A stretch of 64,000 bases of DNA from Cloeon dipterum (Eukaryota > Arthropoda > Insecta > Ephemeroptera > Baetidae), in the NCBI RefSeq assembly GCF_949628265.1, contig NC_088788.1:7254001-7318000 (forward strand), given 5' to 3'. Positions within the stretch are counted from its first letter, which is position 1, and every line of letters starts with the position of its first letter. The notes beneath the pieces are model-generated. The model did not search any database and was not told the DNA's origin. It saw only the letters and a list, made by a program, of their open reading frames with translations. The position numbers and the translations under genes are program-made. Below, one piece after another: positions 32,601 to 59,402 of the stretch.

Positions 32601-35600
32601 AAATAAAAGTGTCTCGAGGACCCATTGGGCCGATGCTCGCACACGACACACGTGAATCAAAATTAGAGTGGCGAGGGGTGGCACACGGAGGCAGTCGCGG
32701 CGGCGAACAGTCAGTGTAATGAGCACCATAAACACCTCTCGTGACGTCAGGCCCGTCTGCAGCTCGTCTCGTCTTCTCTCTCTCTCTCGCTCTCTCTCGC
32801 TGGCTCGTCTTATGCATGCTGTCTCTCGTTTCGCGGATCATTTCGCACATGCAGCGTGCTCAGCACGCCTGCCTGGCTCCGCTCTGCCTGCCTGCCAGCC
32901 AGCGAGGGAGCTAGAGCGAGCGAGCGAGCGTAAGTCGGCATTGTTGTCGCGCCGCACGTTCTTGCATTGTTGGAATTGCGCGTGCCTCACATGCCGATGC
33001 AGGGATTAACTTTTCCAGCGGGAATTTTATGCTCCGTGGCCCTAATTTGCTGGATCTATTTTTTAACGCTAAATTCAAACCTAAGAAGGTTAAAAAATCA
33101 CAAGGAAATTTATTATCCTGCAAAATAATTGTATTTTTGTGTTAAAAAATTATTAAATGATTTTTTTCGCTTGACAGTGTATAATTTTTTCGCTTAAACC
33201 ATGTTTTGAAATTAATTTTCTGTCTCCAATAAGCTGGAAACTTTTTAAATCGGCGAAATATTATTTTCAATTTACTTAATAATTTTTTTCTTAAATTTAC
33301 CATATGAATATGTCGAAATTTTCATCAATATTACGCAAGTAGTTTCAAAACCATTTACTCGCTATTGAATGAAGAAAAATTCTCAATAGCTTGGATCGAT
33401 TTTTATGCATTCAAAAGCGAGTAAATGGTTTTGAAACTACTTGCGTAATATTGATGAAAATTTCGACACATTCAAATGGTGAATTTCATAAGAAAACTCG
33501 CTACTGAATGTAGAAAAATCGATCCAAGCTATAAGGAAATTTAAAAAATTCAAACTACATAATAATTTAAAAAAAAATATAAACCCTGACTTTTACAGGC
33601 CTGAAAATGGATAAATAATTGTTAGAAATACTAATTATAAGAGCAGCATTTTTAGAGGATATTTTATTGTGTCTGAATAAATTTCTCGTTCAACAATGCG
33701 TGGATTCTGTTGTAAATATTTCACATCGCGAATTCGACACGAAATTTTCACTGCATCCTGCAGAGAATATTCTGAATTCCGCTTCTTTATCAATCTTCTA
33801 TACAAAGCAACGGAATTGCCTATCAGGAAAGACAGGTGACTCATTTTAAACGAAATCGGAACCTTTTATTATTCACTGATCTAATTTTCTCTTGTTTCCC
33901 CGTTGAGTCAGAGCAGCCCAATTTTCCGCCTCATCGCGTTTTTCGCCTTTTGCGGTGGTCAGGAGGCTTGCTTGGTTCATGACTCATGGCCGGTCAGAGG
34001 TCACGCTCGTCACGCAATTTTGTGGCCGGCGCGGCGGGAAAAGTCGTCGTTCGACTCGGAGCACCCTTGTGCCCCCCGAGTGGACTCTTTTCGCCGGTCT
34101 ATTTCGGTCCACCCGCGCGCTGGGCGTGGCTGGCAGGACGTCTTGTGCGCTCTTTTCCCTGCCGCCACCGCCGCAGCCGCCAGCCTGCCACTTGACTGCT
34201 TTTTTTGATTAAGCCCAACGCTGGCGATTAGTGTGCATGCAAACGGCCGGCGGATTTTTTAATATCGTCCGCCGCGCCGCCCCCGACTCGTGGAATCTCA
34301 TATCGCGCTGACGAGGAGAGAGCGTGAGCGTGCATCGCACCCCCGACGCCTGCGCTTCCCCGTGGAAAATTGGGAGAAACTGCGTAGTACGGAGGGGAGC
34401 ACGTCACGATTGTTGCTCCAGATCGAAATTTAACGAATATTCTCCGCGACATACTAGTGAATTTTATTTCATTTCCTCTGGAAGTAAAAATAGTAAAAGT
34501 TCACCCCTAAATATTATTAAATAAAATTTTAATTTCTCCAGTCCTTGACGAAATTTTAGATTATTTAGAATTTGCGCTCAATTTTGGCGCTTTTTCTCTT
34601 TATGAAACAGTTGTCCGCACTACTTGAGTTTAATTAGTGGTGGTCAACACAACAATGCGCGAGTGCAGTGCAATGTGGCGTTTCCTGTGCCGTCCTTTGC
34701 TTCGATCGCCAGGTGCTGCTTGCCGCGGAGGCTCTTCGGGGCGCGTGTCAGAGGCTTCCTTGCGTCCAGCTGCCGCGTAGCTTGCTCGCTCGCTCTCTGC
34801 ACCTGCATCGCTAGCACACACGGCGACCAATAACACGAAATATTCATAGTAGTCGTGTTGCCGCCGCATTTTATTACAAGGGTTGATTTCGCTTTTAATT
34901 ACGCTTCCGCGTGTGCAGCAGGGAGAGAGATAGAGAAAGAGAGATCGACTTTATTTTTAGCCTGGCTGGATGTGGATGTACGAGAGTGCGTCTCTCTCAC
35001 TCTCTCGTCAATAAAAATTCCATTCATGCTCTCTTGTGTGGCTGTGGCCTGGCCGAGCAAGCGGCCGAGGGAGAGCACGCGGATGGAAGCAGTCCGAAAA
35101 ATAACGACCATATTTTCTTCTCTCCTTGTGCCTTTGGAAAGAAAGAGCGCGCTAGCAAGGGAGCAAGAAAAAGAAGGAAAAAAATTTGGCAGCGCGGCCG
35201 ACACCGAAAGCTGCGTGGTGTCGGTCAGGTTTGTGTTGGGCCCTGCCTGGCAGCCCCACCCCTCGGAAGCCTCCTTCATTATTCCACGCCGTGCAGAATG
35301 GCACCGGCACGGGGGCTGTGCCGTACCGAGCAGCCGGAATGCTCGCTGCGTGTACGGTGGCGCCACGGGTGCCCGGTTTTCTCCCGCCGCCAACCGGTGA
35401 CACTGGCGGCAGCACCGGTTCACTGCTCCCCACTCCTATAACAAGCGCGCGGTTGTTTTCGCCGGCCGTACCGGTTTTTCTCACCGCCCGACCGGATGTG
35501 ACGCTTCTGCTGCTGTCCCTCGGGAGGAGGGGGAGGGCTACGGGGTGGGGGCACGGGCCCCAAGATGCACGACGGGGAAGCGGCAGAATCTCCATTATTG

Positions 35601-38600
35601 CCCGAGTCGAAGCCGCTTGCGATGCACGGAGAAGCGCCATCGTCGTCACCGGCGGCCCGATCGGCCGTTCCCACGGGACTGGACGCGGCCCGCGCCGTGC
35701 CGGTTCGCCCCGCCGAAGCCGCCGAACGCGACTCGCCGAAGAGTGCGCTGCCCCGACTCTTTCGCCGGCCGACCGCGTGGTTGCCCAACGTTTGGCGGGA
35801 ACCTTCATCCTTGCTGCATGATGCCGCTTGATTTTGAGGTAAATTCTTGACAATGCACTGCCGTCTAAAATTCGCCGAATTCCGCCCGTCCGCCACCCTG
35901 CGAGAATTTTACACATCGTCGGCGTTACTCGATATGCCGCAGCACCATGTGTCTCACAATGAGGACCGGAAGTCGGTGCCGCGTTTTTTTTTCATTCCTT
36001 CTACGAGTTCGGCTCCGTGGGCGGTGGATTTCTCTTTTATTTCGCCTGAAAATTCGACATTTTTATTCGGGTGCATCGTTTTTAGTGGGTATGGTCAGGA
36101 TGCACACGCCAAGCAGAAAAAATAATGCTGCGCCGCCCCCCACCATTTCCCGGTCTATGATAGAGACGCCGTCGCTGCTGCTCTATGTCGACACAAGAAT
36201 TTTAAATGCTTTTCCCGCCATTATCCCAAAAATTCCTGGCTCACGGCCGCCCCGCCACTTGCTCAAGCCTCGTTTGACCGGCTCCGAATTTTGCACTTTT
36301 TAAGTGCATCGCCGGCAGCCAACCTCCGCAACAGGTTCCCGCGGATTGTGCTAATTTTCCGCGTGCTTTTGTTTTCCGAGAGGCACGCTCATCACGACTG
36401 CAGAGCCTGTTGCACCCGATGCGAGATGATTGACAGGTGAAGCTGTTGGAATTTCTTGACAAATAATATTTGGGGGCATTCACATCGGAAATCGGTCACA
36501 GCAGAAGTGGGCTTTAATTTAAATTCCTTCCCGAATTTTCAGTTTAACGCATTATATTTTTTTTTGTCAAGTGTCGTGCTTGACCGGATTTGATTTTCTT
36601 TCGCCTTGCATCATGTTATTGTTTCTGGTGCACCTTTGGCGTGGTCGAAGGTTCTTCCTGGTGGCATGTTCACGTTGTCTTACTACGCAGTGCACTCGTG
36701 GTGATTGCCCCCCACCCGCGTCGTTGATTGCCCCCCACCACCCCACCACTTACCTGCCTCACTGCTGTGTCCAGTGGAGCCCGCCCGCCCGCGCGACACT
36801 CGCCAAATTGGCCGCCGAGGGCCTGAAATAGACCCCTTTTCCCGCCAAATTTTCCGAGCTATTTATTTGTTCTTTATTCTCGCGGTGGTGGCCGCCGCGG
36901 CGCCGACGACGACGCCGGCCGCGGCGGCTGCTCTTTTTCTTTCAATCGGCCCCGTGCGTGGTGTAGTGACGCGCGCTGACGTCAGCCTATTAGCATAGGT
37001 CCCGAAAATGCGGCAATTTCATCGCAAGTAGATGGAAGCGCAAGGAGCTCTTCGAATCTAGCCTCTCTGTCAATTTTTTCTAGGGGGCGTGATGCACCCC
37101 CACACCCGTGTCGGCAAGCCTTTGTTTCCTGGATTGACCAATAGGAGGGTAGGTCATGGCCAGCTTTTGGTGGGATGTGCATCGGGGGTAATGGGGGTAA
37201 GGTGCATAAAAACCCCCGACAGTAGAGATTTTGCCTCATTCCTATGGCTGTCTTCTTCTGGTCAAATGGACCTGATCTCACTCATCCTGCCTCGCTGACT
37301 GGGCTGCGGACTGCAGAATTCTTCAGCATGGACTGAAGCATTAGGTACTTAGAAAATTTTTCACTCCGAATCCCGCGGACTTAGAATTTTTCAGCAGGGG
37401 TGGAAGCTTTGGGTACTTAGAAAATTTTTCGCTCCGAATTATGCGGACTTAGAATTCTTCAGCATGGACTGAAGCATTAGGTACTTCTACAATTTTTCGC
37501 TCCGTATCCCGCGGACTTAGAATTCTTCAGCATGGACTGAAGCATTAGGTACTTATAAAATTTTTCGCTCCGAATCCCGCGGACTTAGAATTTTTCAGCA
37601 TGGACTGAAGCATTAGGTACTTATAAAATTTTTCGCTCCGAATTCCGCGGACTTAGAATTCTTCAGCATGGACTGAAGCATTAGGTACATAGAAAATTTT
37701 TCGCTTTGAATTCCAGCCTCGCGTTCGGCGTTGCTGGAATACTTGTTAGTACTCATGCAGTTTAGCGGAGAGGCGGAACCAGTTTGGACGCAACTCCTCC
37801 CCCGGAAAAGCACGTGCTGGAACAGATTTTTCATTGCGATCTTCTCTTTTTGCTTTCAGGCAAGCCGTGGTACGGACGCTGCAGAGTTCGCTCAGGGCGA
37901 TCGGCGCCGCCAGAGACGAGGCCGAACGCATCCTCGCAGTCGCAACGCAGCTCTCGCAAGATGTCGGTGAGTACACTAGAAATAGAACCATTTTTTTCCT
38001 CCTCTCGACGCCGCCAGTCCTAGGCCACGTGTTTTTCTGGCCCACGTGCTGTGCCGCCGCCGCCGCCGCCTGCTATTTTCGACAGTCGGCATTAATTGGC
38101 GCGATTCCGGCCCCTGATTTTCTTTCCCTCGGATGCTGCCTCTTGCTTCCTTGAAACGCGATTTCGGCCGGCCATCGAGCGCCATGGTTACCGTATCGAT
38201 TGTGCAGAAACAACGATCGCACGCCGCCGAGCCTTACCGATACCGTCTCTACCTCGGAATTTTTTTTAAGTCCCTCAATTCGCTGTTTAAGACCCACTAA
38301 AGCTGAAAATCTATATTATTCATGAACTGAATCTTGATTTATTCGCTTTAAAAATTCCAGAGCTGATTCAAACTTAATAAATTCGGAACTTAGAAGGAAA
38401 TTTTTAGCTGCTCGAAATTCTAAGTTCTTCGTCGATCTCGCGAGCTTTAATCTATTTTCCTTCTGTTAACCCTAAAATCGGCTCGGAAATATTTTAACGA
38501 ATTCGTGGTAAAAATGCTTTTGCTTGGCGCATTTCTATTTTATTTTATTTTTTTCGAAAAAATTCCTAAGAGTTTGTCGGAATTTAGTCTCATTGACAAA

Positions 38601-41600
38601 TATGTGTCTTTTTCTCACGTAAAATTTTCATGAAATAAATCTTGATTTATTTGCTTTGAAAAGATCCCAGATCTGATTCAAACTTAAAAATTCGGAACTT
38701 AGAACGCAATTTTTAGCTGTTCGAAATTCTAAGTTCTTCGTCGACCTCGCGAGCTTATATCTATTTCCCTTCAGTATATATGTTTTAATCCTTAAATCGG
38801 CTCGAAAGTATTTAGGGAATTCTTTTTGGTTGGCGTATTTCTAAATTTTCCTTTTTTTTTCGAGAAAATTTCTAAGTGATCGTTGGAATTTAGTCTCATT
38901 GACAAATATATGTGCCACTCTGAAAACTTTTTCCCACGAAAAATATTCGTGAAACGAATCTTAATTTATCCGCTTTGAAAAAATCCCAGAGCTGATTCAA
39001 ACTTAATAAATTCGGAACTTAGAACGAAATTTTTAGCTGCTCGAAATTCTAAGTTCTTCGTCGATCTCGTGAGCTTTAATCTATTTTCCTTCTGTTAACC
39101 CTAAAATCGGCTCGGAAATATTTTAACGAATTCGTGGTAAAAATGCTTTTGCTTGGCGCATTTTTATTTATTTTTTTTTTTTCGAAAAAATTCCTAAGTG
39201 TTTGTCGATATTCAGTCTTATTGTCAAATATGTGTCAGTTGGAAAACTTTTACTCACGAATAATGCTCACGAAATCTTGATCAAATATTTGAGCGGCAAG
39301 TAATCTTTTATTTTTCTTACAAAATATTATGTTGCCTTCAAAGTTAAGTGGTTGTAAATTGTTTGTATCGGCCATATAAAAATTACAAGGGCAATAAAGT
39401 AATTTTTTTACTTGTCAAGTACCTTAAGAAATATCTTGTTAACCAATTTTTTCTTACAAAATTTTTCCACCATTTAAAATCCCTATTTTATTGCTTCGTG
39501 ATGCAACTTCCGTCACTGTTCAGAACAATTACTTAAATCTACGGCGCTTTTATTTCATTTTTCGCATCATGTGCCGGTGGTAGCAGAGTAATTAGCCCGC
39601 TTCCTTTTGGGCCGCGCTTCTCGGAATCGGGCGCTCACCTCTCGCACGGGCTTCCCGGAATCCCCTTGGCCGGAAAAGAAGCAAGCCAAGCCAGCCAGCC
39701 TTTGCCTTTTTGCTTTTTCACTCGCGCTGCTTCTGCTCTCGCTCGGTCTCAGTGGCAAAGAGCTGCTTTTCAATGGGGTGTAGTAAAATGCGTGCGAGTG
39801 AGTGTATGTGTGTGTGTGAGAGAGAGAGCGAGAGAGTGAGTGTTTGTCCTTCTTTCTTGTTTTTAATCTGCAATCACCCCTCGCCGCTGCTTGCCCCTCG
39901 CTCGCGCGCGGTGACGTCACCGGCCACGGCGTACTCTCCCTGTGCGTCGGATGGCGCGCGCGCTGCTCCGTCGACGACGACGCGAGCGAAGTGAGAGAGA
40001 GAGATACTTTCGCTGGCTGGCAGGCAGGCTGGCTGGGCCCGCGTATTGATCGTGGTCGTGCCACGGCGCCCCCTCGTCACGGCACGGCCGCCGCCGCCGC
40101 CGCTGCTCCTCTCGGCGCGCGCGAGTGTGAGTGAGTGTGGCCGCGGTGTGTGTGTGTGTGTATCAATGAACGCGTACACCTAGCGAGAGAGCGGCAACGA
40201 CTGCTGCTTCTGCTTGTCGAGGGGGGCGCCACGCCCACCGTGCGGCGGCGGCGGCTTTCGCGGCGGTGGCGGCGGCAGGGCCCACCATCGGCCCGAATCG
40301 CACGAGTTAACGCCGATTTGTTTTTCCACTTGCAGTTGAGGACATCAGATGCGATGTGGCCGACCAGATTCCGCACCTGGCGCTCGCGTGTCACGCGGCC
40401 CACGAGCCCGACGGCCGCACCCTGGACTCCCTCATCTCGTCGCACATCCTGCCCATCGTCAGCAACCTCCTCATCGACACCAACAAAATGGTTAGTCTTC
40501 CAAAATTTGTACGAAAATTGTAAAATAAAAGTTTTCATCTCGAAGTGACGTTCGTAACCCTTTAAAGTTTACGTTTTCTTGGCCCAGGTTCAAATTTACG
40601 CAACATTTTTTTAAATATTTTTATTTTAAAGATATCATTTTTACGTGCTGGGGGGAAAACAAAAGTTGTTTCTGTCAATCGGAATAGTACTCTTGAATAA
40701 TAACAAATTTTAAAAACAAACATTTTTTCTACACCCAAAACTGTTCTGTTTACGACTTGAAATAACTATTTAAAAACACAAATAAATTCAATGTTGTTTT
40801 TTTTTGTCTCTTTCTCCCTTCAGATACACAAAACAGCGCAGAGTGCGTTGCTAGCCCTTCTCGAGCAGGGTCTCCTTCCCTCGGCGGTGGTGGAGGACAA
40901 GTTGGTGCCGCTGGTCGTCGGCTGGTGTTCCAGAGGCGACTCAGAACTGGAAACTAGTGCTATAGGGGTGAGTTTCTATTTTAAAATCTCTGCTCGCTTT
41001 CCAAATCAAAACAGATCGGCAAAGCGGAGGAGAATTGCAGCGAAAGTGGCGCCGTCGGCGTGAAAGACATGGGTAGTGAGATGTGAGTTGTGCCATCGTC
41101 TCACTATCTTGTCTTTCATGCGGGTTGTGCCTGAACCAGCGGCTGCGGAGCGATTTTCTGTGTGGTCCTGCTTATCAAAGTCGGCCTGTCGTAGCGTTTT
41201 CAACCTATCACAGCCAGCTTTGATGAGCACGAAGGCCAGAAACTGCATCACTGTCTACAAAAAATTAATAAAGATTTTTTGCTTGTTTTTTATTTTTGAA
41301 AATTGCATTTAAAAAAATTTTGTCTTTTAAATAAAATAAATATTTTTATTAAAATTTCAACCTGATCAAATTAGCCAATTTTCCTTAAATTATCGAATAA
41401 AAAATTTACCTCTGCAATTTGTCTTGAACTTCGTCATCGAGCACCTCTAGGAGTGATGAAGAGCAACGGCCGTGGCAAAGCCGTCAAAATGGCTGTGACT
41501 TATGTGTGTTTTCCCCTCATATCACAGCCACTTTGATGAGCTTTGCCCGGCGTAATTCGCCGAGAGAAGAGCCAACTTGCCATCGTGAGTGACCGTCCGA

Positions 41601-44600
41601 CCGACCGACCGATAGAACGTTTGCAACGCGTCAAATTGGCTGGGGTGTGTTCTGTGCGAATCATATCACAGCCATATTTGACGAGTTGCAAGTACGTTTC
41701 ACCCTTGCAACAGCCTGCCTGCCTACCTTGCCGAGAAGAAGGAATTTCGTGAGCTCGCCAACAAAGCTATGGGTCTGTAAACGCTACTCTTCAAAGTGGA
41801 TGTGACATGTAATGAACTCATATCACAGCCAGCTTTGAAGAGCAATGTCCAGACCACACATTCGTCCCTCTCGAGCGCATCACAATTTTTGATAAAAATA
41901 GAAAAATTGCAGTGGAATTGATTTTCAGGCGTTTTGGTGCTCATTAAAGTGGCTGACGACTGGCGACTTCCGACCTATCACAGCCAGCTTTAATGAGCGC
42001 GAAGACGCTGTTATTCGCGCCTCCTCTGCCAAATTGTGGAGTTCAAAATTAAAATCGATTTTTCGGCTGTATGTTTATTTTGTTTATCGTTTTACATGTA
42101 TTGTGTCTGATATAATTAAATTAAGCCAATCGACGCAATGAAAGAAAAAGATTTTAACGCCCGCGATTCTGTCCTTTTGTGTTGCAGTTAATGACAAAGA
42201 TGGCATCTGTGATAGGCCGCGACTCAACCGTGCAGCACTTTCTGCAGCCGTTCTGCGACATGTGCGACAACGCTCAATTATACGTGCGAAAAGTGTGCGC
42301 CACCAACTTTGGCGAGTTCGCAGCCGTGTTCGGGCCCTCCAAGACTGAAGAAATGCTCGTAAGCCCGCCACGGACTTACGAGCGCGATCTCATATATTTA
42401 CACTGTATTTTTTGTGCAGCTGGTCAGCTTCCTGCGGCTGTGCCAAGACAGCGAGTGGGCCGTGCGCAAGGCTTGCGCAGAGGTCTTCACCTCGGTCTCG
42501 CACGCAGTCAGCCTCGCCAAACGCAGGTCAGCAATAAATACCAAATTGGAAACCAAATATTTTACTGTGATGAAATAAAACCTGATAGTGAGTTAGGATA
42601 TTATGATTTGTTAATAAAGGAGATGGCGGCGTTATGTTACTTACAAAATAAAAAAATAATAAAAAATGAAATGAAATAAATGATATATATTTTTTAACTA
42701 AACCGTTGCTCATATTTAATAAAATAAATAAAGATTAATATGTTCTAAATTTCGAATAAATTAATAAACTGAAATTTTTCTGACAAAATTAATTTATATT
42801 ATTAAACAAAAAATAAGGAATCTCAATATGTTAGGTTTTTTGTACGAATTTAATTAAATGGCTTCAAATAGTATAAAAAATTAAGAGGAAAAATTAGTAA
42901 TTTGCTGATTAAATTAAATTCTTTAAGGATTAACCAACCATGTGAAACGCTTTCAAACCAATTTTTTTAAAAATCGTTTCAGGTGGGCTAGGTTCGTATA
43001 TTATTAGGTTTTTACTCCGTAAGCAGCCTGTAAAATACTTAATGAGCAATGTGGTTGAAGAATTATCATTTATTTTCTTTAATTTTAAATTTAATAAAGG
43101 TCAATGGCCTCAAAACAAATTAATTGTTTCGACACTATTAATTTTTGCAGCAGTTTTTCATTAAAAAATGGAAGAAATATATATTTTTTATATTTCTATG
43201 TCAGGAAAATTAATCTAAGGAACTAATTATTCTTAAAATTTTATGATAAAGAACTCTTGCGCATTGTACTGAGTAATTTGATGTGTCCTCAGGTCGACGT
43301 TGGCTGCGACATTCCACCACCTTCTGCGCGACGAGTCGCGGTGGGTGCAGGTGGCGGCGTTCCAGTCGCTGGGCTCTTTCATCGCGAGCTTCACGCAGCA
43401 GCAGCACGCCAGCGACCACCAGGTGCTGCTGGACACTGAAGGCGTGGTGCTGGCCCTCAGGGCCGAGGCCAACTGCAAGTCGATGATGCACTACGCGCCG
43501 AGAAATGAGACCCTGAATCTCGTCGGCGGCGGTGACGACGACGACGATGAGGACGAGGACGAAGAACGCGATGCTGGCGATGAGATCCTCGAACACCACA
43601 CCGAGGAACACGAGGATGCTGAAGAGCAGAAGCGCAGGGAGGCCGAGGAGACCGCCTCGAGGCTCGTCGACTCGATCACCTCGCAGGTGCAGCAGCTGGT
43701 CGTGGCAGAGGAAAGCTTCAACACGTTCCAATACTGGCGCACGCCGCTCCCGGAATTGGAGCTGGTAGACGAGCCAGCGCCCCCGCTGCCCACCACCGAG
43801 CCGCCAAAGGCTCCCAACGAGCCTGCTTTTTATAATGTACGTCTGCCCGAGAAAATATTAATGAATAAAAAAAATGATCAGATACAGATAGCGATAAAAA
43901 TAATAGCCCATCTAGGGATCTTGGAGAGTAAATGAAATATTTATTATAAATTTTTGTAAGAAATCAAGATTATTTCAAATTTGTTCACTAGTTTTTTGGC
44001 TACTTTGCAATATTTTAATAGAAAAGTGCGATTTTTTCATCATTTCTAAACAGTGTTCCAAAAAAACCGGCTTTTTCTAAAACGAGGTGGTTTTATCCGG
44101 CTTTATTTGGCTGCTTTTTTTTAGCAAAAAAATATTCTTTAAACTAACTTTTGGATTTTTGACAACAAAAAAATAAAAAAGTCAGAATAAAGCCGGCTAA
44201 AATAGGGTGGTTTAAACCTGGTTTAAACCACCATGGATTAAACCGGCTGGATAAAACTAGGAACACTGTTTCTACCAGCTCTTTATTTTCCAAATATTTG
44301 GTCTTTGTGCCATTTTAACACTAAGTTCTCCTTTTCCTCGATTGCAGAGTGATATAACGCCGCCATTGTCCCCACTGGCATCTCTAATGCCGGATCGCTT
44401 GGAGAATCAAGCGCCAAACATTGCTCTACCACCAGTCCCAAGCGTCGATTCAGGTGAGGAACAAAGCAATAAATCACGATTTTCAACACCGCCCCTTGTA
44501 GCTAATGCATTCCAATTGAGCAACTTTGTTTTCCCTAGTCTCTTATTTTGAAATGGCCTTTTATTATCAAAAGGTGGACTTTTTATTCCATTAGGGACAC

Positions 44601-47600
44601 AACATCTTAAAAGCTTTCATAGGGATTTTGTTTAAAAACATTTCGACTTTATTAAAACATTCAAAATGATTCAAATTTTGTAATTTTGTTCGTTTTCCTG
44701 GAGTTTTGAGACTGGTTTTCTGAGAACTGGACACTGAAATCTTGCCGCTTTTGTAAAACTTGTCAATTATTTGTGTCTACTTTTTAGCTATTGCTTTATT
44801 TTGAGCTGATTAACCAATAATTATACCAATTCCATTTTTTTTAATATCAAATCTTTAAAGATAAATCAAGTTTTTATTATTTTTTCTGAGTTGCATATTT
44901 GTTTTACCACTCGACTCTTTTACCACTGAATTTTTTCCTCTTCCTGTGAAATTCTAAATTGTGCAGTCAGAGTTGTCAAAATGTCCTCTACTGCGCAGCT
45001 TTTTTTTCTTTAAAATTGCTATTTGCTGACTTAATTTTCTCAAAAGGTTTTTCTGATAAATTTTCAGTCAAGGCTTATAATTAGAAAATTATTGAAAACA
45101 GGTGCAAACATGGCCTGCAAGAAACTGGTATAAATTGAGAAAATAAACACTGCACTATTTTTTTTAAATGTGTATTTTTTGCAACCCATTTTTTTAATTT
45201 AACTGCAAGCAGAGATCAACATCCATTTTTTTAATATTTGAAAAGTGCGACCACTCGAGGTTGTTTTCATGTTGAATTGTATGGAATTTATATGATTTTA
45301 GATGTGACATTATTGTATTGTTTGTTATTTGATTGTAATTGTAACTCATGATTAGGACGTACTTGGTGACGTCGAAACTGGTCGAGAAATAAAGAAGACG
45401 AATTTCTCTTTAATTTGACAACGAGGATGAAGCCTGGTTTTAATTATATTCAACATCCATTTTTTTGTTTGGATACGAAATGAAATATTCAATTTTATTG
45501 AAATGTCACAACAGTTCATAATTTTGTTTTGCTCTATTGAAAATAATTTCCTAAAATCATTAAAAAAATTAATCACGCTAGATGAAGCATTTCTTCTAAA
45601 ATCTTATCTGTAATTTAAAAAATTGATACATAGTAAATCAAGTTTTCCTCAAATTTTTAATCTGAAGGGGATTTCAAAAATTTTTATTTAATAAATAAAA
45701 ATTTTTCTATGGTTTCATCAAAAATGTTTTGAAGCAGAAGTGCTTTTAAATGGAAAATTCCTGGTGACTCTCTTAACCTGCGTGTTCATTCACTCTCTTT
45801 TCTTTTAAAATATTCAGGGTTGCAAAAAACCCGCATTTTTTATTTTAAAAAATGCAGTGTAATGGTAAAATATTTTTTTTCAATTTTTACCAGTTTCTTG
45901 CAGGAAATGTTTTCACCTTATTTTTCATTAATTTACTAATTATTAGCAAATAACCTTGACTTGAAAAATTGTCAGAGATAAACTTTTGGAGAAATTTAGG
46001 CAGCAAAATGGCTTTTTAAAAGAAAATATCTGCACAGTGGAGGAAATTTTGAGCACTCCAACCGCAAATTATAGATTTTCACAGAAGAAAAATGGAATAA
46101 ATTAATTTCTTGCTATTCTTGCGCAATAAATTGGTAAAAACCAGGTGGTAAGCAAATGCAACCCTGAAAATATTAACCATACAATTTAAAATATTAACCG
46201 TTTTTTCCTATCTGTGTTTAGGTCTGCACGAAAAGTGTCTGGACAGCGACTCGTCGGAGTGGCTGTCGAACTGCGAGGGCTTCAAGCAGGACGTGGTGCC
46301 GCCGATGCTGATCAACCACTTTGTGTACATGGCGACGCCGCTGGCGCGTTCGGTGGACAACGAAATCTCGCACCACTGCGCGTTCAGCCTGCCGGCGGTG
46401 GTGCTGACGCTGGGCCGCGACAACTGGCCCATCTTGCGCAAGACGTACCAGTGTCTGGCGTCGGACATGCAGTGGAAGGTGCGCCGCACGATGGCCTCGA
46501 GCATCCACGAGGTGGCCGGCATCCTGGGCGAGGAGCTCGCCTCCACCGACCTCATGCCCATCTTCCTCGAGTTCGTCAAGGACCTGGACGAGGTGCGCAT
46601 CGGCATCCTCAAGCACCTCACCTCCTTCCTCAAAATGCTGCGCCGCGACGAGTGCGAACGCTTCCTGCCTGAGCTGTCGCGCCTCCTGCAGATGGACCAC
46701 CACACCAACTGGCGGTACCGCGAGGAGCTCGCCACCCAGCTCATCGGCGTGCTCGACCTCTGCACTCCGGAACATGCCAGGGCCCACGTTGCCCCCATCG
46801 CACTAGCGCTGCTCGACGACCGCGTCGCTGCCGTCCGAGAAGCCGCATTGCCACTGGTTAGCTTTAAAAAATTAAATAAATCATTTAAAAAATGTGTACA
46901 TCAATATTCTGTTCAAAACAAATTATTTTTTTGTTTTTAAAAATTAATAAATTTAAATAATTAAATGGTTAGTTCAAGCAAAAAAATTTATTTATCCATT
47001 CCTCCTCAGGTGGCAAAGGTGACGTCAAAGTTGGGCGAAGAGCACGAGCTGCTGGACCGTCTGCTGGCACGCTACCACGAGCTCTACGTGGTGACAGAGC
47101 GGTGGATGCGCCGCCAGAGCTTTTCTCTGCTCTGCGGTCACCTGATCCGGCTGCCCAATCCGCCGGTTAGCCCTGAGACCTTCGCCACTCGCATTTTGCC
47201 CATGCTAGAACACCTGGCAAAGGACCCTGTGCCCAACGTACGTCTCGCCGTCGCACAGTCTGTTAACCAGGACGTCCTCGCACATCGTAAGAATTTTGTT
47301 TTTAAATTTTTATTTATTAAATCTAGGCTGAAATGCTTCTGTCATATTTTCCGGTATTTTAAATAATTTTTCACTTTTAAAAATGGACAGAACCAACCTC
47401 ATTAAAGGGATTTTAATTATTAAAAGAAGAAATTGACATTAATTAAAAATTTCAGACCTTAATAGCTCTCTTTTAAATCATCAAATATTTAAAATTGTGC
47501 CAGAAATTAATTTTTTTTCTCTTCAATTTTTCCAGCGTACTTCTCTCCCAGCGGCGGTCCAGGTTACTACATGATTGAAGGAGTTGTACACGATTTACAG

Positions 47601-47723
47601 CTGGACCGGGACCGCGATGTGCGCTATTTCTCTGGCGGCATGCACGAGAGCTCTTACGAACTGTCGAACGAGACGCCTCTGAGCGAGGACTCGACGATGG
47701 ACCACATGGCCTTTTCGAGCTGA
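15095..47723 (+). CDS. PPP4R1: PPP4R1: protein phosphatase 4 regulatory subunit 1
   Basis: The CDS joins 15095-15101, 15175-15219, 26295-26439, 37860-37966, 40336-40490, 40824-40967, 42188-42358, 42420-42526, 43293-43836, 44348-44453, 46222-46856, 47010-47286 and 47536-47723. All introns are GT-AG and phases agree, giving 876 residues. Family motifs include MAD at the start, TAQSALLALLEQGL (human TSQAALLALLEQEL), YVRKVCATNFGE, WVQVAAFQSLG, FQYWRTPLPELELVD (human FHFWRTPLPEIDLD), LGRDNWPILR, SDMQWKVRRTMA and LDEVRIGILKHL, and LQLDRDRDVRYF near the end. N- and C-terminal HEAT repeats flank an acidic linker (about 375-410). PPP4R1 binds PP4 catalytic subunit and tunes its substrates; in mammals it restrains NF-kB signalling. 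Introns 2 and 3 are 11 kb each, and intron 6 hosts the miR-71/miR-2 cluster. Confidence 0.95.
15175..15219 (+). CDS. PPP4R1: PPP4R1 exon 2 (residues 3-18)
   Basis: Acceptor TCTGCTTTCAG after a 73-bp intron. Encodes the acidic N-terminus DLFSQYGEDTANSDE. The donor GTGAGT opens an 11,075-bp intron. Confidence 0.85.
15220..16326 (+). other. Start of PPP4R1 intron 2
   Basis: CpG-rich to about 15570, where several frames stay open on both strands by composition alone, then AT-rich. No independent gene is supported. Confidence 0.6.
16327..16746. repeat. Foldback element, family B copy 2
   Basis: A 420-bp near-palindrome with ends ACCAGTTGCATAAACCC / GGGTTTATGCAACTGGT. The inverted-repeat match extends outward through AATT on both sides. 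Internal motifs are shared with the copies at 8220 and 60402. Confidence 0.8.
17262..17640. mobile_element. hAT-type MITE (CAGGGTTGCA family), copy 1
   Basis: Starts CCGGGTTGCAAAAGCCCGC and ends GCAAATGCAACCCTG. About 350 bp align with the copy at 45815-46166. Flanks share TTAATT but no exact 8-bp duplication. It directly abuts the LINE-derived block that follows. Confidence 0.6.
17641..19400 (+). mobile_element. Decayed non-LTR retrotransposon-like repeat, copy 2
   Basis: Aligns with 10380-12720 but lacks an internal segment (a jump at about 18895), removing the YLGV motif region. Retains the NLAISPVASYGIEAIW remnant near 19030. Many stops; not coding. Confidence 0.65.
19401..21821 (+). other. 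PPP4R1 intron 2, mixed-composition stretch
   Basis: Contains a CGTT/CGCT tetranucleotide run at about 19811-19837, moderately GC-rich islands (about 19990-20620 and 21400-21690) and AT-rich sequence between. I see no gene or repeat family. Confidence 0.6.
21822..22572. mobile_element. Non-autonomous DNA transposon with ~175-bp terminal inverted repeats
   Basis: The left arm 21822-21997 and right arm 22399-22572 are near-perfect inverted repeats, with one 3-nt indel near the inner ends. Each starts TTGTAATATACCTATGCTAT at its outer edge. The 400-bp interior has no inverted match and encodes no recognisable transposase; the longest interior frame (minus strand, 81 codons) is not convincing. 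Confidence 0.75.
22573..23616 (+). other. PPP4R1 intron 2, AT-rich
   Basis: No feature seen until composition becomes GC-rich at about 23520. Confidence 0.6.
23617..23663. repeat. (GA)n microsatellite
   Basis: GAGACAGAGAGAGAGA... grading into GCGA repeats, inside a GC-rich island. GAGA tracts are common near arthropod promoters. Confidence 0.85.
23664..23960 (+). promoter_or_regulatory. Possible alternative PPP4R1 promoter in intron 2
   Basis: A CpG-rich island holds the GA tract and, at about 23818, a TCAGTTCAGTG motif resembling the arthropod initiator TCAGT. It lies 2.5 kb upstream of exon 3. Transcripts starting here would bypass exons 1-2, which encode only 17 complete residues. I could not identify a linked 5' exon. 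Confidence 0.25.
24751..24978 (-). mobile_element. Truncated TTAA-type MITE, reverse orientation
   Basis: About 230 bp match the complement of the first half of the element at 28677-29111, ending CAGTATCATCATTCCACT directly before TTAA at 24979-24982. The other end is missing. Confidence 0.7.
25065..25530 (+). mobile_element. LINE-like repeat fragment, copy 3
   Basis: Aligns with about 10800-11280, including TGGTCAACTCCTCATTTTAG and CATTCCAGTGTTTG, then diverges. Confidence 0.6.
26295..26439 (+). CDS. PPP4R1: PPP4R1 exon 3 (residues 18-66)
   Basis: Acidic N-terminal segment (GMSGDAEDELCDDPSSVLDD) leading into the first helix, ending DNPYHR at the junction (human ENIFNR). A strong GTGAGT donor opens the 11,420-bp intron 3. 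Confidence 0.93.
26522..26821. repeat. Divergent family B foldback element
   Basis: Ends CAAACAGATGACGCCACTGT and, 250 bp away, ACAGTGACGCCATCTGTTGA are inverted repeats. The inner GCATTGAAAATGCCTTAATA resembles the family B interior. Lies in PPP4R1 intron 3. Confidence 0.6.
27899..28172 (-). mobile_element. Internal fragment of the TTAA-type MITE, reverse orientation
   Basis: About 270 bp match the complement of the middle of 28677-29111, including CCCCAATAAGTGGCATA and GATCTCGACGAGAGGAAT. Both termini are absent. Confidence 0.65.
28677..29111 (+). mobile_element. TTAA-flanked (piggyBac-like) MITE, copy 1
   Basis: A 435-bp element with imperfect terminal inverted repeats AGTGGAATGATACTG / CAGTATAATTCCTCT, flanked by TTAA at 28673-28676 and 29112-29115. 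No coding capacity. TTAA target duplication is the hallmark of piggyBac-type transposition. Confidence 0.8.
30480..30830 (-). mobile_element. LINE reverse-transcriptase remnant (minus strand)
   Basis: On the minus strand, from 30830 downward, the frame reads EFTYLGVTFQSSGISFYKHI. After a frameshift it reads NLAIAPIASYGVEAIWPFLN and ends in a stop. The same motifs occur in the + strand remnant at 12200-12430, so both belong to one LINE family. Broken, not functional. Confidence 0.75.
31772..32206 (+). mobile_element. TTAA-flanked MITE, copy 2
   Basis: 435 bp, nearly identical to copy 1, with TTAA at 31768-31771 and 32207-32210. The flanks AATTG-TTAA and TTAA-ATAATTC join to AATTGTTAAATAATTC, which is present uninterrupted at about 29694 and 31247 in sister repeat units. 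These are pre-insertion sites. Confidence 0.88.
32510..36980 (+). other. PPP4R1 intron 3: CpG-rich blocks
   Basis: GC- and CpG-rich blocks (about 32560-32960, 33930-34330, 34640-36300 and 36640-36980) alternate with AT-rich DNA. A TC-rich run lies at 32758-32806. Long open frames on both strands of 35150-35920 reflect composition, since several frames are open together. The blocks may be enhancers or alternative promoters; none can be assigned. Confidence 0.5.
33311..33468. repeat. Perfect 53-bp inverted repeat
   Basis: 33311-33363 and 33416-33468 are exact reverse complements (53 of 53), separated by 52 bp. Similarity continues imperfectly for another ~18 bp outward. A CTCGCT..GAATG..GAAAAAT segment next to the left arm is also repeated at about 33498. 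It lies in PPP4R1 intron 3, so the pre-mRNA would carry a long perfect hairpin. Confidence 0.9.
37306..37714. repeat. Six-copy 68-bp tandem repeat upstream of PPP4R1 exon 4
   Basis: Units start at 37306, 37375, 37443, 37511, 37579 and 37647. The unit begins GCGGACTTAGAATTCTTCAG and contains the palindromic TTCAGCATGGACTGAA and a TTTTTCGCTCCGAAT box. The array ends about 145 bp before the exon 4 acceptor. Units differ at only a few positions; unit 2 is the most diverged. Confidence 0.92.
37860..37966 (+). CDS. PPP4R1: PPP4R1 exon 4 (residues 66-102)
   Basis: HEAT helix RQAVVRTLQSSLRAIGAARD, aligning with human RQMVARSLLDTLREV. Tandem arrays lie on both sides of this exon. Confidence 0.93.
38321..39267. 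repeat. Three-copy ~315-bp tandem repeat in PPP4R1 intron 4
   Basis: Units begin near 38321, 38629 and 38948, with about 20 bp of a fourth at 39268. Each unit contains the inverted pair GAACTTAGAA...TTCTAAGTTC followed by TTCGTCGAtCTCG. Units 1 and 3 are more alike than either is to unit 2. Confidence 0.88.
39580..40335 (+). other. CpG-rich end of PPP4R1 intron 4
   Basis: GC-rich with GT/GA microsatellites (about 39800-39842 and 40147-40162) and CCG runs. No conserved exon seen; the large antisense open frames are composition effects. Confidence 0.5.
40336..40490 (+). CDS. PPP4R1: PPP4R1 exon 5 (residues 102-153)
   Basis: HEAT repeat VEDIRCDVADQIPHLALACH, then SHILPIVSNLLIDTNKM. Aligns with human VRAELMEQVPHIALFCQ...LLPIVVRYLADQNNQV. 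Confidence 0.93.
40824..40967 (+). CDS. PPP4R1: PPP4R1 exon 6 (residues 154-201)
   Basis: IHKTAQSALLALLEQGL and the next helix. Its donor GTGAGT opens intron 6, the host of the microRNA cluster. Confidence 0.95.
41053..41130 (+). ncRNA. mir-71: mir-71 precursor hairpin
   Basis: The 5p arm at 41061-41083 begins TGAAAGACATGGGTAGTGAG, the invariant miR-71-5p sequence (seed GAAAGAC). It pairs with 41099-41121 (TCTCACTATCTTGTCTTTCA) across a 15-nt loop. miR-71 is an ancient microRNA lost in vertebrates and Drosophila and usually found just upstream of miR-2 genes, as here. First hairpin of the cluster, on the host strand. Confidence 0.96.
41155..41242 (+). ncRNA. mir-2: mir-2 precursor hairpin 1 (miR-2a type)
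   Basis: The 3p arm 41206-41228 begins TATCACAGCCAGCTTTGATG, matching the known insect miR-2a-3p (seed ATCACAG). The 5' arm CTTATCAAAG pairs with CTTTGATGAG, and the stem extends through TTCTG...CCAGAA. The miR-2 family represses pro-apoptotic genes in flies and Kr-h1 in cockroach metamorphosis (prior knowledge). Confidence 0.95.
41467..41554 (+). ncRNA. mir-13a: mir-13a-like precursor hairpin
   Basis: The 3p arm 41520-41542 begins TATCACAGCCACTTTGATGA, as in insect miR-13a. The 5' arm GGCAAAGCCGTCAAAATGGC folds back onto GCCACTTTGATGAGCTTTGCC. Seed identical to miR-2. Confidence 0.93.
41615..41699 (+). ncRNA. mir-13b: mir-13b-like precursor hairpin
   Basis: The 3p arm 41664-41687 begins TATCACAGCCATATTTGACG, close to insect miR-13b (third U of the UUUUU run replaced by A). 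The 5' arm TTTGCAACGCGTCAAATTGG pairs with CATATTTGACGAGTTGCAAG. Confidence 0.93.
41770..41856 (+). ncRNA. mir-2: mir-2 precursor hairpin 2 (GAAGAGC variant)
   Basis: The 3p arm 41821-41843 begins TATCACAGCCAGCTTTGAAG and ends AGC. The 5' arm ACTCTTCAAAG carries the matching change, so the stem is kept. Confidence 0.94.
41926..42011 (+). ncRNA. mir-2: mir-2 precursor hairpin 3 (TTTAATGAGC variant)
   Basis: The 3p arm 41976-41998 begins TATCACAGCCAGCTTTAATG and ends AGC. The 5' arm GCTCATTAAAGTGGCTG carries the compensating base. The outer stem GGCGTTTT pairs with GAAGACGC-type sequence. Last hairpin of the cluster, about 180 bp before exon 7. Confidence 0.94.
42188..42358 (+). CDS. PPP4R1: PPP4R1 exon 7 (residues 202-258)
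   Basis: LMTKMASVIGRDSTVQHFL, then FCDMCDNAQLYVRKVCATNF, matching human FCEMCCDCRMFHVRKVCAANF. Confidence 0.96.
42420..42526 (+). CDS. PPP4R1: PPP4R1 exon 8 (residues 259-294)
   Basis: HEAT repeat LVSFLRLCQDSEWAVRKACA, aligning with human LCSDNVWGVRKACAECF. Separated from exon 7 by a 61-bp intron. Confidence 0.95.
42527..43292 (+). other. PPP4R1 intron 8, no feature seen
   Basis: 766 bp of very AT-rich intron with no repeat match or RNA signal. Confidence 0.75.
43293..43836 (+). CDS. PPP4R1: PPP4R1 exon 9 (residues 294-475)
   Basis: End of the N-terminal HEAT array (WVQVAAFQSLGSFI), an acidic low-complexity linker (GGGDDDDDEDEDEE, about 372-386, with EEHEDAEEQ after it), then the conserved NTFQYWRTPLPELELV motif and a proline-rich stretch. 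Confidence 0.95.
44051..44268. mobile_element. hAT-type MITE (CAGTGTTC family) in PPP4R1 intron 9
   Basis: 218 bp with inverted ends CAGTGTTCC / GGAACACTG. Flanking octamers TTTCTAAA and TTTCTACC match at 6 of 8 positions, fitting the 8-bp duplication of hAT elements. The interior has repeated CCGGCT and GGTTTAAACC motifs. Confidence 0.75.
44348..44453 (+). CDS. PPP4R1: PPP4R1 exon 10 (residues 476-511)
   Basis: Proline-rich linker (SDITPPLSPLASLMPDRLEN) with low conservation. Supported by good splice sites and phase. Confidence 0.88.
44454..45814 (+). other. PPP4R1 intron 10, AT-rich part
   Basis: No gene or repeat recognised before the hAT MITE that starts at 45815. Confidence 0.7.
45815..46166. 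mobile_element. hAT-type MITE (CAGGGTTGCA family) with perfect target duplication
   Basis: 352 bp with terminal inverted repeats CAGGGTTGCA / TGCAACCCTG, flanked on both sides by the octamer AAAATATT (45807-45814 and 46167-46174). Aligns along its length with 17262-17640. Ends 55 bp before the exon 11 acceptor. Confidence 0.9.
46222..46856 (+). CDS. PPP4R1: PPP4R1 exon 11 (residues 511-722)
   Basis: Largest exon; C-terminal HEAT array with LGRDNWPILRKTYQCLASDM, QWKVRRTMASSIHEVAGILG and DLDEVRIGILKHLTSFLKML, all strongly matching mammalian PPP4R1. Open antisense frames here are shadows. Confidence 0.97.
47010..47286 (+). CDS. PPP4R1: PPP4R1 exon 12 (residues 723-815)
   Basis: HEAT repeats including WMRRQSFSLLCGHLI and DPVPNVRLAVAQSVNQDVL. 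From 47077 on, this exon is duplicated at 58248. Confidence 0.95.
47536..47723 (+). CDS. PPP4R1: PPP4R1 exon 13 (residues 815-876)
   Basis: Final HEAT helix with HDLQLDRDRDVRYF (human MALQMDRDSDVKYF) and a Ser/Thr/acidic tail ending HMAFSS; stop TGA at 47721-47723. Confidence 0.96.
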
Positions 47724-48129
47724 GCCTGCATTTGGATTTGTGTTCACTCTGTTGCTGCAACAAAGAATTTAAAAAAGGACGGAAGGTGCAGTTAGTTGGC
47801 TGTGACACGACTGCCGCTCGCGAATATTATTGTTTGTGAGCTGGTCTCACTGCGAGACAGACTGAAGAATTAATTAAAATCATCGTGTTGCCTGTCCCCT
47901 AGCTCCACAGCGCAACGACGCATTTTTTTACTAATCGCGAGTTGAATGAATTAAATTGTCATGGTGCTACTCTCGGCGTCGTCCGGCCCCGGCGCCAATG
48001 CGAATATTGATTAACGTGCTTTTTGTACTGAGAGAAGGAGAAGACACGTCGGTGGACCATTTTGCAGCGTTTTTACTCAATTCTCCGAGAAAGCAAGCAT
48101 TGTGTGGTTCACTCGGGCTGTGGATTTGC

Positions 48130-48135
48130 AATAAA
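48130..48135 (+). terminator. PPP4R1 poly(A) signal
   Basis: AATAAA 407 nt after the stop, followed by T-rich TGTTATTTTTCT. The duplicated segment ends about 50 bp beyond it. Confidence 0.65.
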
Positions 48136-48243
48136 AGAATTCATAACTACTTAAACACCGGTCTGTTATTTTTCTCTTACCAGGAATTAACAAACATATA
48201 TGGATTTAGGAATTCCATCATTTAGAATTGCAATCGCAACACA

Positions 48244-51375: not shown

Positions 51376-53597
51376 CAGGGTGTACAAGAAATGAACGACC
51401 ACTGATCCCGGGGCTCTATTTTGAGAACCCGGAGTCCGATCGGAAAAATTCCAACGGCGGCATAAACTTTGGCTGTGGAGGAAGAGACCAATAATTGGTG
51501 TCTACCCTCCCAGGTCGATTGTTGCGCCGGTACAATGCAAAATGCTCAGGCGAAAAAGGTGTCTTATGGAAAACTCAGGTTAAATTTTTCCGAGACACGA
51601 ACCTTCGTTTTTCTATCGTGCAAACAGGTTTTCTAGGGTAAAATTTCCCGGGGATTCCGAATCCAGCGTTATTTTTTCGATTTGCAATGTTAAATTTTTC
51701 AGGAAAGCGAAATTTTGAATTTCAGGTCACCAAAAATTACGGCTTTCCCAAATTTTCTCACAAAATGTGAAGCACAACATCGATTCTGGCTGAAATTTTC
51801 CGGCGAAGCCATTGTTGATGTGAAACAATCGAAAAAATTATGATTTTTCATGAAAATCGGTGAAAATGTCTAGCTCCGGCAACACGTGTCGGGAAGCTCA
51901 GCTCGAAAGGAGAGTTAGGGGACAAATCTTGTCGAATAAAGTCGCAATTCGGTATGCTGCTAGAAAATGGCAAGTTGGTCCGGAAAAATTTTAGTTTTTG
52001 AAAATCAGACCAAAATTGTCCACTTTCATAAGGGGTCCGTGTTTGGCCTTGCAGCTCAACACCTATGGGTCTGAGAGTAAAAATAAGCACAGATTCTGAA
52101 AGCTGATAAAATTTGCAATCTTCTTTGTATGGAGCAAAAATTTCTTTCGCCTTCGACTTTCCCGGAACATTCCTTTGAAAATTCACTAAACTTCTTTGGA
52201 AAAGGAAAAATATCGAGAAAAAATTTTCAAGATAGCCAAAACCTAGCTGGGGTCTTTATTAACTTCTCGTAAAAAAATAAAAACATTCGTGCAAGCCGTT
52301 TTCTTGTAGCACGCGTTTTCCCAAGTGTCCAACTTGAAAAATTAAAAAAAAATGAAATTTTCCAAAAATGGCCAAATTACACATTTTTGGACTCGTCATG
52401 AAATGCTGATTCCAAAAATGTTTGGTTTTTTAGAATCCGATAATTTTTCAAAAAGTTACACCATTTTTAAAAAGTTGAAATTTTCAAAAATTTCTTAAAT
52501 GTTTCAAAGTTCCATAACTTTTCTAATAATGCTCGGATTTTCAAAAACCAAACATTTTTGGAATCAGCACTTCGTGTGGAGTCCAAAAATGTGCAATTTA
52601 ACCATTTTTGGACACTTTCGATTTTTTCGGTTTTTTCAAGTTGGACACTTGGGAAATCACGCGCAGCATGAAAACGGCTTGCACGAATGTTTTTATTTTT
52701 TTACGAGAAGTTAATAAAGACCCCAGCTAGGTTTTGGCTATCTTGAAAATTTTTTCTCGATATTTTTCCTTTTCCCAAGAAGTTTAGTGAATTTTCAAAG
52801 GAATGTTCCGGGAAAGTCGAAGGCGAAAGAAATTTTTGCTCCATACAAAGAAGATTGCAAATTTTATCAGCTTTCAGAATCTGTGCTTATTTTTACTCTC
52901 AGACCCATAGGTGTTGAGCTGCAAGGCCAAACACGGACCCCTTATGAAAGTGGACAATTTTGGTCTGATTTTCAAAAACTAAAATTTTTCCGGACCAACT
53001 TGCCATTTTCTAGCAGCATACCGAATTGCGACTTTATTCGACAAGATTTGTCCCCTAACTCTCCTTTCGAGCTGAGCTTCCCGACACGTGTTGCCGAAGC
53101 TAGACATTTTCACCGATTTTCATGAAAAATCATAATTTTTTCGATTGTTTCACATCAACAATGGCTTCGCCGGAAAATTTCAGCCAGAATCGATGTTGTG
53201 CTTCACATTTTGTGAGAAAATTTGGGAAAGCCGTAATTTTTGGTGACCTGAAATTCAAAATTTCGCTTTCCTGAAAAATTTAACATTGCAAATCGAAAAA
53301 ATAACGCTGGATTCGGAATCCCCGGGAAATTTTACCCTAGAAAACCTGTTTGCACGATAGAAAAACGAAGGTTCGTGTCTCGGAAAAATTTAACCTGAGT
53401 TTTCCATAAGACACCTTTTTCGCCTGAGCATTTTGCATTGTACCGGCGCAACAATCGACCTGGGAGGGTAGACACCAATTATTGGTCTCTTCCTCCACAG
53501 CCAAAGTTTATGCCGCCGTTGGAATTTTTCCGATCGGACTCCGGGTTCTCAAAATAGAGCCCCGGGATCAGTGGTCGTTCATTTCTTGTACACCCTG
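51376..53597. mobile_element. 2.2-kb near-perfect palindrome (TA-flanked foldback element)
   Basis: Outer ends CAGGGTGTACAAGAAATGAA and its complement lie between TA dinucleotides (51374-51375 and 53598-53599). The arms match almost base for base to within about 45 bp of the centre near 52487. Both arms carry the same 112-codon frame in opposite directions (minus 52186-51848, plus 52787-53125), differing at one residue (VAGARH / VAEARH). That frame resembles no known protein and probably stays open because the arms are recent copies. TA duplication suggests Tc1/mariner-type mobilisation; no transposase is encoded. Confidence 0.88.
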
Positions 53598-58247: not shown

Positions 58248-58896
58248 ACGAGCTCTACGTGGTGACGGAGCGGTGGATGCGCCGCCAGAGCTTTTCGCTG
58301 CTCTGCGGTCACCTGATCCGGCTGCCCAATCCGCCGGTTAGCCCTGAGACCTTCGCCAGTCGCATTTTGCCCATGCTAGAACACCTGGCAAAGGACCCTG
58401 CCTGTGCCTAACGTTCGCCTCGCCGTCGCACAGTCTGTTAACCAGGACGTCCTCGCACATCGTAAGAATTTTGTTTTTAATTTTTTATTTATTAAATCTA
58501 GGCTGAAATGCTTCTGTTATATTTAACAGTATTTTTAAATAATATTCACTTTTAAAAATGGACTGAACCAACCTCATTCAAGGGGTTTTAATTATTAAAA
58601 GGAGAAATTGACATTAATTAAAAATTTCAGACCTTAATAGCTCTCTTTTAAACCATCAAATATTTAAAATTGTGCCAGAAATTAATTTTTTCTCTTCAAT
58701 TTTTCCAGCGTACTTCTCTCCCAGCGGCGGTCCAGGTTACTACATGATTGAAGGAGTTGTACACGATTTACAGCTGGACCGGGACCGCGATGTGCGCTAT
58801 TTTTCCGGCGGCATGCACGAGAGCTCTTACGAACTGTCGAACGAGACGCCTCTGAGCGAGGACTCGACGATGGACCACATGGCCTTTTCGAGCTGA
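58248..58896 (+). pseudogene. Truncated PPP4R1 copy (exons 12-13)
   Basis: Copy of PPP4R1 47077-47723: partial exon 12 (58248-58461), intron 12 and exon 13 (58709-58896). Retained introns show it arose by DNA duplication, not retrotransposition. A 4-nt insertion near 58401 shifts the frame and gives TAA at 58409-58411. The eight coding substitutions I count are seven synonymous and one Thr to Ser. It has no 5' exons or promoter. Annotation pipelines may report exon 13 here as a short ORF. Confidence 0.9.
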
Positions 58897-59357
58897 GCCT
58901 GCATTTGGATTTGTGTTCACTCTGTTGCTGCAACAAAGAATTTAAAAAAGGACGGAAGGTGCAGTTAGTTGGCTGTGACACGACTGCCGCTCGCGAATAT
59001 TATTGTTTGTGAGCTGGTCTCACTGCGAGACAGACTGAAGAATTAATTAAAATCATCGTGTTGCCTGTCCCCTAGCTCCACAGCGCAACGACGCATTTTT
59101 TTACTAATCGCGAGTTGAATGAATTAAATTGTCATGGTGCTACTCTCGGCGTCGTCCGGCCCCGGCGCCAATGCGAATATTGATTAACGTGCTTTTTGTA
59201 CTGAGAGAAGGAGAAGACACGTCGGTGGACCATTTTGCAGCGTTTTTACTCAATTCTCCGAGAAAGCAAGCATTGTGTGGTTCACTCGGGCTGTGGATTT
59301 GCAATAAAAGAATTCATAACTACTTAAACACCGGTCTGTTATTTTTCTCTTACCAGG
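58248..59357 (+). repeat. Segmental duplication, unit B proximal end
   Basis: 1,110 bp matching 47077-48184. The 3' UTR part (about 460 nt, including AATAAA) appears identical, while the intron and exon parts differ at scattered sites. Both copies stop matching at the same CTTACCAGG. Confidence 0.95.
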
Positions 59358-59402
59358 TCAAAACTAATATTATGGAATGGAATAATACTACTGTAGGGAT
59401 TC

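Follow-up and report, generated by a model that had tools for sequence, protein, structure and literature searches.

Background

MicroRNA genes of the mir-2 family have been found inside the same host gene in animals as distant as a mollusc and a nematode. In the oyster Crassostrea gigas, six mir-2 genes reside within an intron of PPP4R1 and their expression is reported to resemble that of the host (largest r = 0.93); in Caenorhabditis elegans, mir-2 is located in an intron of ppfr-1, which is the PPP4R1 ortholog. The same report considers that the PPP4R1 position possibly represents the organisation in the common ancestor of oyster and worm, adds that microRNAs are generally not expected to keep their host gene across distant species, and names spitz and CG7033 as hosts of mir-2 and mir-13 in Drosophila (PMC4138081). 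C. elegans mir-71 is intronic in ppfr-1 as well, in a different intron from mir-2 (PMC2835999, PMC3410857). Here we describe a stretch of 64,000 nucleotides (nt) from the mayfly Cloeon dipterum (assembly GCF_949628265.1, contig NC_088788.1, positions 7,254,001 to 7,318,000 of the forward strand; hereafter the window), in which one intron of PPP4R1 contains six predicted hairpins of the mir-71 and mir-2/mir-13 families.

Among other arthropods, Bombyx mori has been given contig positions for miR-2a-1 (2892), miR-13a* (2777), miR-13b (2615), miR-2a-2 (2476) and miR-2b (2355) (PMC2435238). For Daphnia, matches to mir-71 and mir-2a are listed on one scaffold, with starts 653 bases apart. Cloeon dipterum and miRNA occur together in 8 papers, one of which names Cloeon in connection with a predicted miR-2c site in Runt. 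In the open-licence literature, we found no paper that combines mayfly, microRNA and mir-71, and PPP4R1 together with miR-2, taken as whole words, led to the oyster paper alone; we do not claim that PPP4R1 as host is unreported in insects.

Results

A preliminary description of the window, made from its letters, placed six consecutive plus-strand hairpins at 41053-42011 and assigned them to miR-71 and miR-2/13. Both statements are confirmed, the first by Rfam matches and folds and the second by the covariance models RF00832 (mir-71) and RF00047 (mir-2). By the limits of the Rfam matches (41055-42002), the hairpins span 948 nt, mir-71 being first and five mir-2 family members following, all on the same strand (Table 1). 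At gathering score (50 bits for RF00832, 45.5 bits for RF00047), the window yields five matches, one to mir-71 and four to mir-2; the fifth mir-2 hairpin, hairpin 1, stays under that score, and its E value in Table 1 comes from a search of the intron alone. As was also noted at the outset, the 3p arms have a common start: UAUCACAGCC begins all five arms of the mir-2 family. The window contains exactly five copies of TATCACAGCC, every one inside the cluster, and with at most one mismatch there are 9 window matches versus 2.26 expected. The 5p arm of mir-71, taken as TGAAAGACATGGGTAGTGAGATG at 41061-41083, is identical to that published for Daphnia, Thrips and Biomphalaria. The 3p arm of hairpin 5 is nearer to miR-2a, so that its match to Bombyx miR-2b is by position only.

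Failure of the six loci to fold had been named in advance as an outcome that would count against the cluster. All six fold, with z between -5.2 and -8.5, and at each locus none of 200 shuffles folds as well. When 6392 plus-strand windows of 86 nt each are ordered by composition-corrected stability, the loci take ranks 2, 3, 5, 6, 8 and 10. The predicted mature arms have 19-21 paired bases each, and their partner arms are roughly estimated at 21-24 nt. The loops of 13-20 nt originally described did not hold up, as the gaps between the predicted arms, set by the overhang rule, measure 17, 10, 15, 14, 11 and 12 nt in cluster order. We have good confidence in the joint reading that these are predicted microRNA hairpins forming the canonical protostome mir-71/mir-2/mir-13 cluster, that the cluster is retained in an intron of PPP4R1 and that its transcription would be driven by the host.

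The assembly (190,111,064 bases, 10 contigs) was searched for both families at E 0.001, whereby the best 60 of 41021 first-look candidates were scored for mir-2 and the best 60 of 17638 for mir-71. The RF00047 search gave six rows, all of them at the cluster, four being over the cut-off and two representing the minus strand of hairpins 2 and 4; the two rows of the RF00832 search are the two strands of one hairpin in the cluster. A degenerate pattern of the mature arm matches the genome five times, always in the cluster, and the reversed pattern used as control gives 0 matches. Across 14 control genomes, the mir-2 search produced one match under the cut-off (Caulobacter) and the mir-71 search none. 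The whole of intron 6, queried against the genome, matches itself only. Sought as stray invertebrate DNA in other collections, the miR-71 arm has 0 matches in bacterial and archaeal genome contigs, and the miR-2a arm 0 in viral contigs.

The preliminary description also named the host as PPP4R1, on the same strand, which is borne out by 13 coding exons and by the protein match to PPP4R1-like of Cloeon dipterum. The open frame comprises 876 codons plus stop, with GT/AG at 12 of 12 introns. The last 810 residues of the 876-residue model are those of P0001, PPP4R1-like isoform X2 of C. dipterum; a part of 774 residues assembled from exons matches P0001 with 100% identity over 100% of the query, and the next match, from Neocloeon triangulifer, shows 77% identity over 99%. 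Pfam reports seven families on the protein, three over their cut-offs, all HEAT repeats. Among sequences with solved structures, 18 match the frame of exon 11 (262 residues), and almost every one carries the name of a PP2A scaffold subunit; both results are as expected for PPP4R1. Searched against the genome, the protein gives 12 stretches, all in the window, two of which fall in a partial copy of its 3' end.

Numbering of the cluster's intron as the sixth stands for the long coding isoform and not for isoform X2. It leans on exon 1, which has 7 coding bases and was positioned by eye, while exons 2 and 3 were located by tblastn with the Neocloeon protein P0002. P0001 starts with MIDRQAVV, and the window has a single plus-strand match to the pattern M-I-D-AG followed by GT. 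This site is probably the first exon of isoform X2, which would place the cluster in intron 4; any non-coding exons further upstream would shift both intron numbers. The site lies in a GC-rich stretch at about 34-37.5 kb, a setting that hints at a probable internal PPP4R1 promoter upstream of the cluster.

Proteins of other species bear on the age of the intron. Precisely at the junction of exons 6 and 7, 3 of 120 PPP4R1 proteins, all from Timema, have 30 extra residues, a hint that stick insects possess an intron at this point. One partial model among the 120, from Ephemera danica, begins at the second codon of exon 7. Together these models fit an intron at the same place in other insects, which is suggestive only and does not imply that the cluster is contained in it.

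Table 1. Positions in the window of the PPP4R1 gene and of the predicted microRNA hairpins and arms within it
Feature	Position	Strand	Properties
PPP4R1 long isoform	15095-47723	+	13 coding exons, stop included
PPP4R1 exons 1-5	15095-15101, 15175-15219, 26295-26439, 37860-37966, 40336-40490	+	
PPP4R1 exons 6-10	40824-40967, 42188-42358, 42420-42526, 43293-43836, 44348-44453	+	
PPP4R1 exons 11-13	46222-46856, 47010-47286, 47536-47723	+	
Candidate alternative first coding exon, isoform X2	36426-36436	+	ATGATTGACAG, M-I-D-R; 4.6 kb upstream of cluster
Intron 6	40968-42187	+	1,220 nt, phase 0, GTGAGT...TTGCAG; contains cluster
mir-71 hairpin	41055-41125	+	RF00832 70.5 bits, E 4.9e-13; -49.4 kcal/mol, z -7.45
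miR-71 5p arm	41061-41082	+	TGAAAGACATGGGTAGTGAGAT; predicted 3p arm about 41100-41120
mir-2 hairpin 1, miR-2a-1 type	41168-41232	+	RF00047 34.6 bits, E 1.4e-4; -36.8 kcal/mol, z -5.48
Hairpin 1 3p arm	from 41206	+	TATCACAGCCAGCTTTGATGAGC; identical to printed miR-2a of Daphnia and Bombyx
mir-2 hairpin 2, miR-13a type	41477-41545	+	RF00047 65.1 bits; -44.0 kcal/mol, z -8.52
Hairpin 2 3p arm	from 41520	+	TATCACAGCCACTTTGATGAGC; 22 nt identical to printed Thrips tabaci miR-13
mir-2 hairpin 3, miR-13b type	41624-41690	+	RF00047 55.1 bits; -39.4 kcal/mol, z -7.03
Hairpin 3 3p arm	from 41664	+	TATCACAGCCATATTTGACGAGT; one mismatch versus printed Bombyx miR-13b
mir-2 hairpin 4, position of Bombyx miR-2a-2	41784-41847	+	RF00047 65.5 bits; -28.3 kcal/mol, z -5.21
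Hairpin 4 3p arm	from 41821	+	TATCACAGCCAGCTTTGAAGAGC; one mismatch versus printed Bombyx miR-2a
mir-2 hairpin 5, position of Bombyx miR-2b	41937-42002	+	RF00047 45.8 bits; -47.1 kcal/mol, z -8.32
Hairpin 5 3p arm	from 41976	+	TATCACAGCCAGCTTTAATGAGC; one mismatch versus miR-2a, three versus printed Bombyx miR-2b

Several repeats were seen in and around the host gene. Its 3' end (the greater part of exon 12, then exon 13 and sequence past the stop, 47077-48204) is duplicated with 97% identity at 58248-59376, about 11 kb downstream; in the duplicate, the frame of exon 12 is shifted near 58400 and exon 13 encodes the same 61 residues. PPP4R1 intron 2 holds a near-perfect inverted repeat (16440-16600, -86.2 kcal/mol for 161 nt) that resembles a small mobile-element remnant and has no Rfam match at gathering score. 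Further near-perfect inverted repeats are located in intron 3 (33330-33460, -67.8 kcal/mol) and at 7200-7330 (-83.0 kcal/mol). Finally, nearly the same open frame of 135 residues is found at 51848-52255 and, fewer than 500 bases away on the other strand, at 52718-53125, forming a long inverted repeat.

Discussion

We suggest that a canonical cluster has been kept at its probably ancestral place, an intron of PPP4R1. RNA polymerase II would initiate on the gene distally, near 15 kb, and probably also internally, near 36.4 kb. Both transcripts would traverse intron 6, where Drosha would crop the six hairpins, from which Dicer would produce a single miR-71-5p guide and five guides of the miR-2/13-3p kind. 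The steps that we infer are the use of host promoters, cropping, choice of guides and their targets. PPP4R1 transcripts most likely serve as the primary transcript of the cluster. Intron 6 is short and mostly occupied by the cluster: by the Rfam limits, only 87 nt separate its 5' splice site from the mir-71 hairpin, and 185 nt separate the last hairpin from its 3' splice site, hence there is little room in it for a separate promoter.

Several observations weigh against this proposal, and the first group concerns transcription. The cluster may instead possess its own promoter in or just upstream of intron 6, independent of PPP4R1, so that the shared location would reflect ancestry and not coupling. 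In C. elegans, regions upstream of the intronic mir-71 and mir-2 have promoter activity: GFP driven by the mir-71 region shows only partial overlap with the ppfr-1 pattern, mir-2 is cited as having its own promoter, and small-RNA data are reported to favour mir-71's own promoter over that of the host (PMC2835999). A 2.4-kb region upstream of C. elegans mir-71 has also served as a reporter, and in the assay carried out a potential ppfr-1 null did not reproduce the effect of losing mir-71 (PMC3410857). In the mayfly, GC-rich DNA at about 39.5-40.5 kb, partly exon 5, is situated directly upstream, and a promoter in this DNA, in intron 5 (333 nt) or in exon 6 could serve the cluster. The shortness of the intron before the mir-71 hairpin argues against an independent promoter of the cluster, as does the host-like expression of the oyster mir-2 genes (PMC4138081). 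On the co-transcription inferred in the preliminary description, which would tie the dose of the cluster to PPP4R1 transcription and splicing, published relatives point both ways, oyster co-expression for host coupling and C. elegans intronic promoters against it. We consider an independent promoter possible, though rather doubtful.

The second group of observations concerns individual members. Hairpin 1 remains under the Rfam cut-off (34.6 versus 45.5 bits), its 5p arm is unlike those of the other copies, and the genome-wide search at E 0.001 has no row for it; hairpin 5 passes the cut-off narrowly (45.8 versus 45.5 bits). Some mir-2 copies, chiefly hairpin 1, might accordingly be decaying, that is, still able to fold and poorly processed. 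Against decay stand the 3p arm of hairpin 1, which is identical letter by letter to the miR-2a printed for Daphnia and Bombyx, its fold, which none of 200 shuffles equals, and the order of members, which fits that published for Bombyx, where 2a-1 comes first too. Decay of this kind seems unlikely to us.

Thirdly, minus-strand folds of the loci, with z from -4.0 to -9.0, are about as good as those of the plus strand, and for hairpins 2 and 4 they are the more stable ones (-44.6 and -37.7 kcal/mol). Inverted repeats behave in this way, and the strand is called as plus on the basis of Rfam scores and mature-arm sequence. Antisense genes were considered and rejected, since minus-strand Rfam scores (44.5 bits for mir-71; 42.8, 40.5, 33.1 and 28.1 bits for mir-2; none listed for hairpin 1) are under the cut-off and under those of the plus strand at the five loci listed. 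With their stabler minus-strand folds at 41470-41552 and 41774-41855, hairpins 2 and 4 make antisense products conceivable, and the cluster may give rise to some. As to the single locus, no further mir-71 or mir-2 locus was seen in the 190-Mb assembly among the best 60 candidates per family, a negative that is strong and not absolute.

The miR-2 family targets K-box sites, and AUCACAG, the K-box family seed, is the seed of all five miR-2/13 guides. Because one seed is common to them, the five members would amount to a single dosed pool of guides directed at common targets. A perfect 8-mer match to this seed, CTGTGATA, occurs at 42207-42214 in PPP4R1 exon 7, just downstream of the cluster. It is a single, statistically weak site in 2,631 coding bases, and 81 of 2000 synonymous-codon shuffles contain one as well. 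The seed matches listed for the plus strand between 15.0 and 49.5 kb are intronic or fall within the mir-71 3p arm, exon 7 or exon 9. None for miR-2 or miR-71 follows the PPP4R1 stop codon on that strand up to 49.5 kb, and self-regulation through the 3' region of the host was rejected on this ground, the 3' end of the transcript not being fixed. It can be imagined that coupling to PP4 regulation matters and that for this reason the link of PPP4R1 with mir-71 and mir-2 was retained from the protostome ancestor onwards, with the whole miR-2 pool feeding back on the K-box of exon 7, but we judge this very unlikely.

That the hairpins are chance or repeat-derived foldbacks devoid of microRNA function is extremely improbable and was rejected: the window does contain other strong foldbacks resembling mobile-element remnants (the inverted repeats starting at 16440, 33330 and 7200), yet the six loci represent two curated Rfam families with conserved order and conserved mature arms, they stand out in the stability scan, and their intron is single-copy in the genome.

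The proposal that survives best, a canonical cluster retained in PPP4R1 and transcribed with it, can be compared with the described systems. The oyster has six mir-2 genes where the mayfly has five opened by mir-71 (the term mir-71 is absent from the main text of PMC4138081). C. elegans resembles the mayfly in having both families inside the PPP4R1 ortholog on the host strand, as given by the same-strand intronic microRNAs in Table 1 of PMC2835999. It differs in that the two families occupy different introns, show promoter activity of their own and include one mir-2, whereas the mayfly has six hairpins in one 1.2-kb intron. Bombyx mori resembles the mayfly in its five mir-2 members, which are arranged in a matching order and fit into about 0.6 kb of one contig. 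This agreement makes it probable that the set of five genes existed before mayflies separated from other winged insects. In contrast to the mayfly, Bombyx mir-71 was on another contig of an early assembly, and no host is given, the word intron being absent from the main text of that paper (PMC2435238).

In Drosophila, mir-2a-2/2a-1/2b-2 (in spitz) and mir-13b-1/13a/2c (in CG7033) are considered to stem from one ancestral mir-2/13 cluster (PMC3763532). Unlike in the mayfly, this cluster is split in two, the hosts are other genes (PMC4138081) and mir-71 is lost (PMC3763532). The comparison suggests that spitz and CG7033 are derived hosts.

Taken together, a lophotrochozoan (oyster), a nematode (C. 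elegans) and now a mayfly indicate that a PPP4R1 intron is likely the ancestral home of mir-71 and mir-2, retained into winged insects. The mayfly locus offers a compact system for asking whether host coupling preserves such links. Its evolutionary interest is modest, as it represents a data point in favour of a published idea and no new type of system. The PPP4R1-hosted arrangement is already known from oyster and worm, and the mayfly's contribution is an insect that houses the two families in a single intron.

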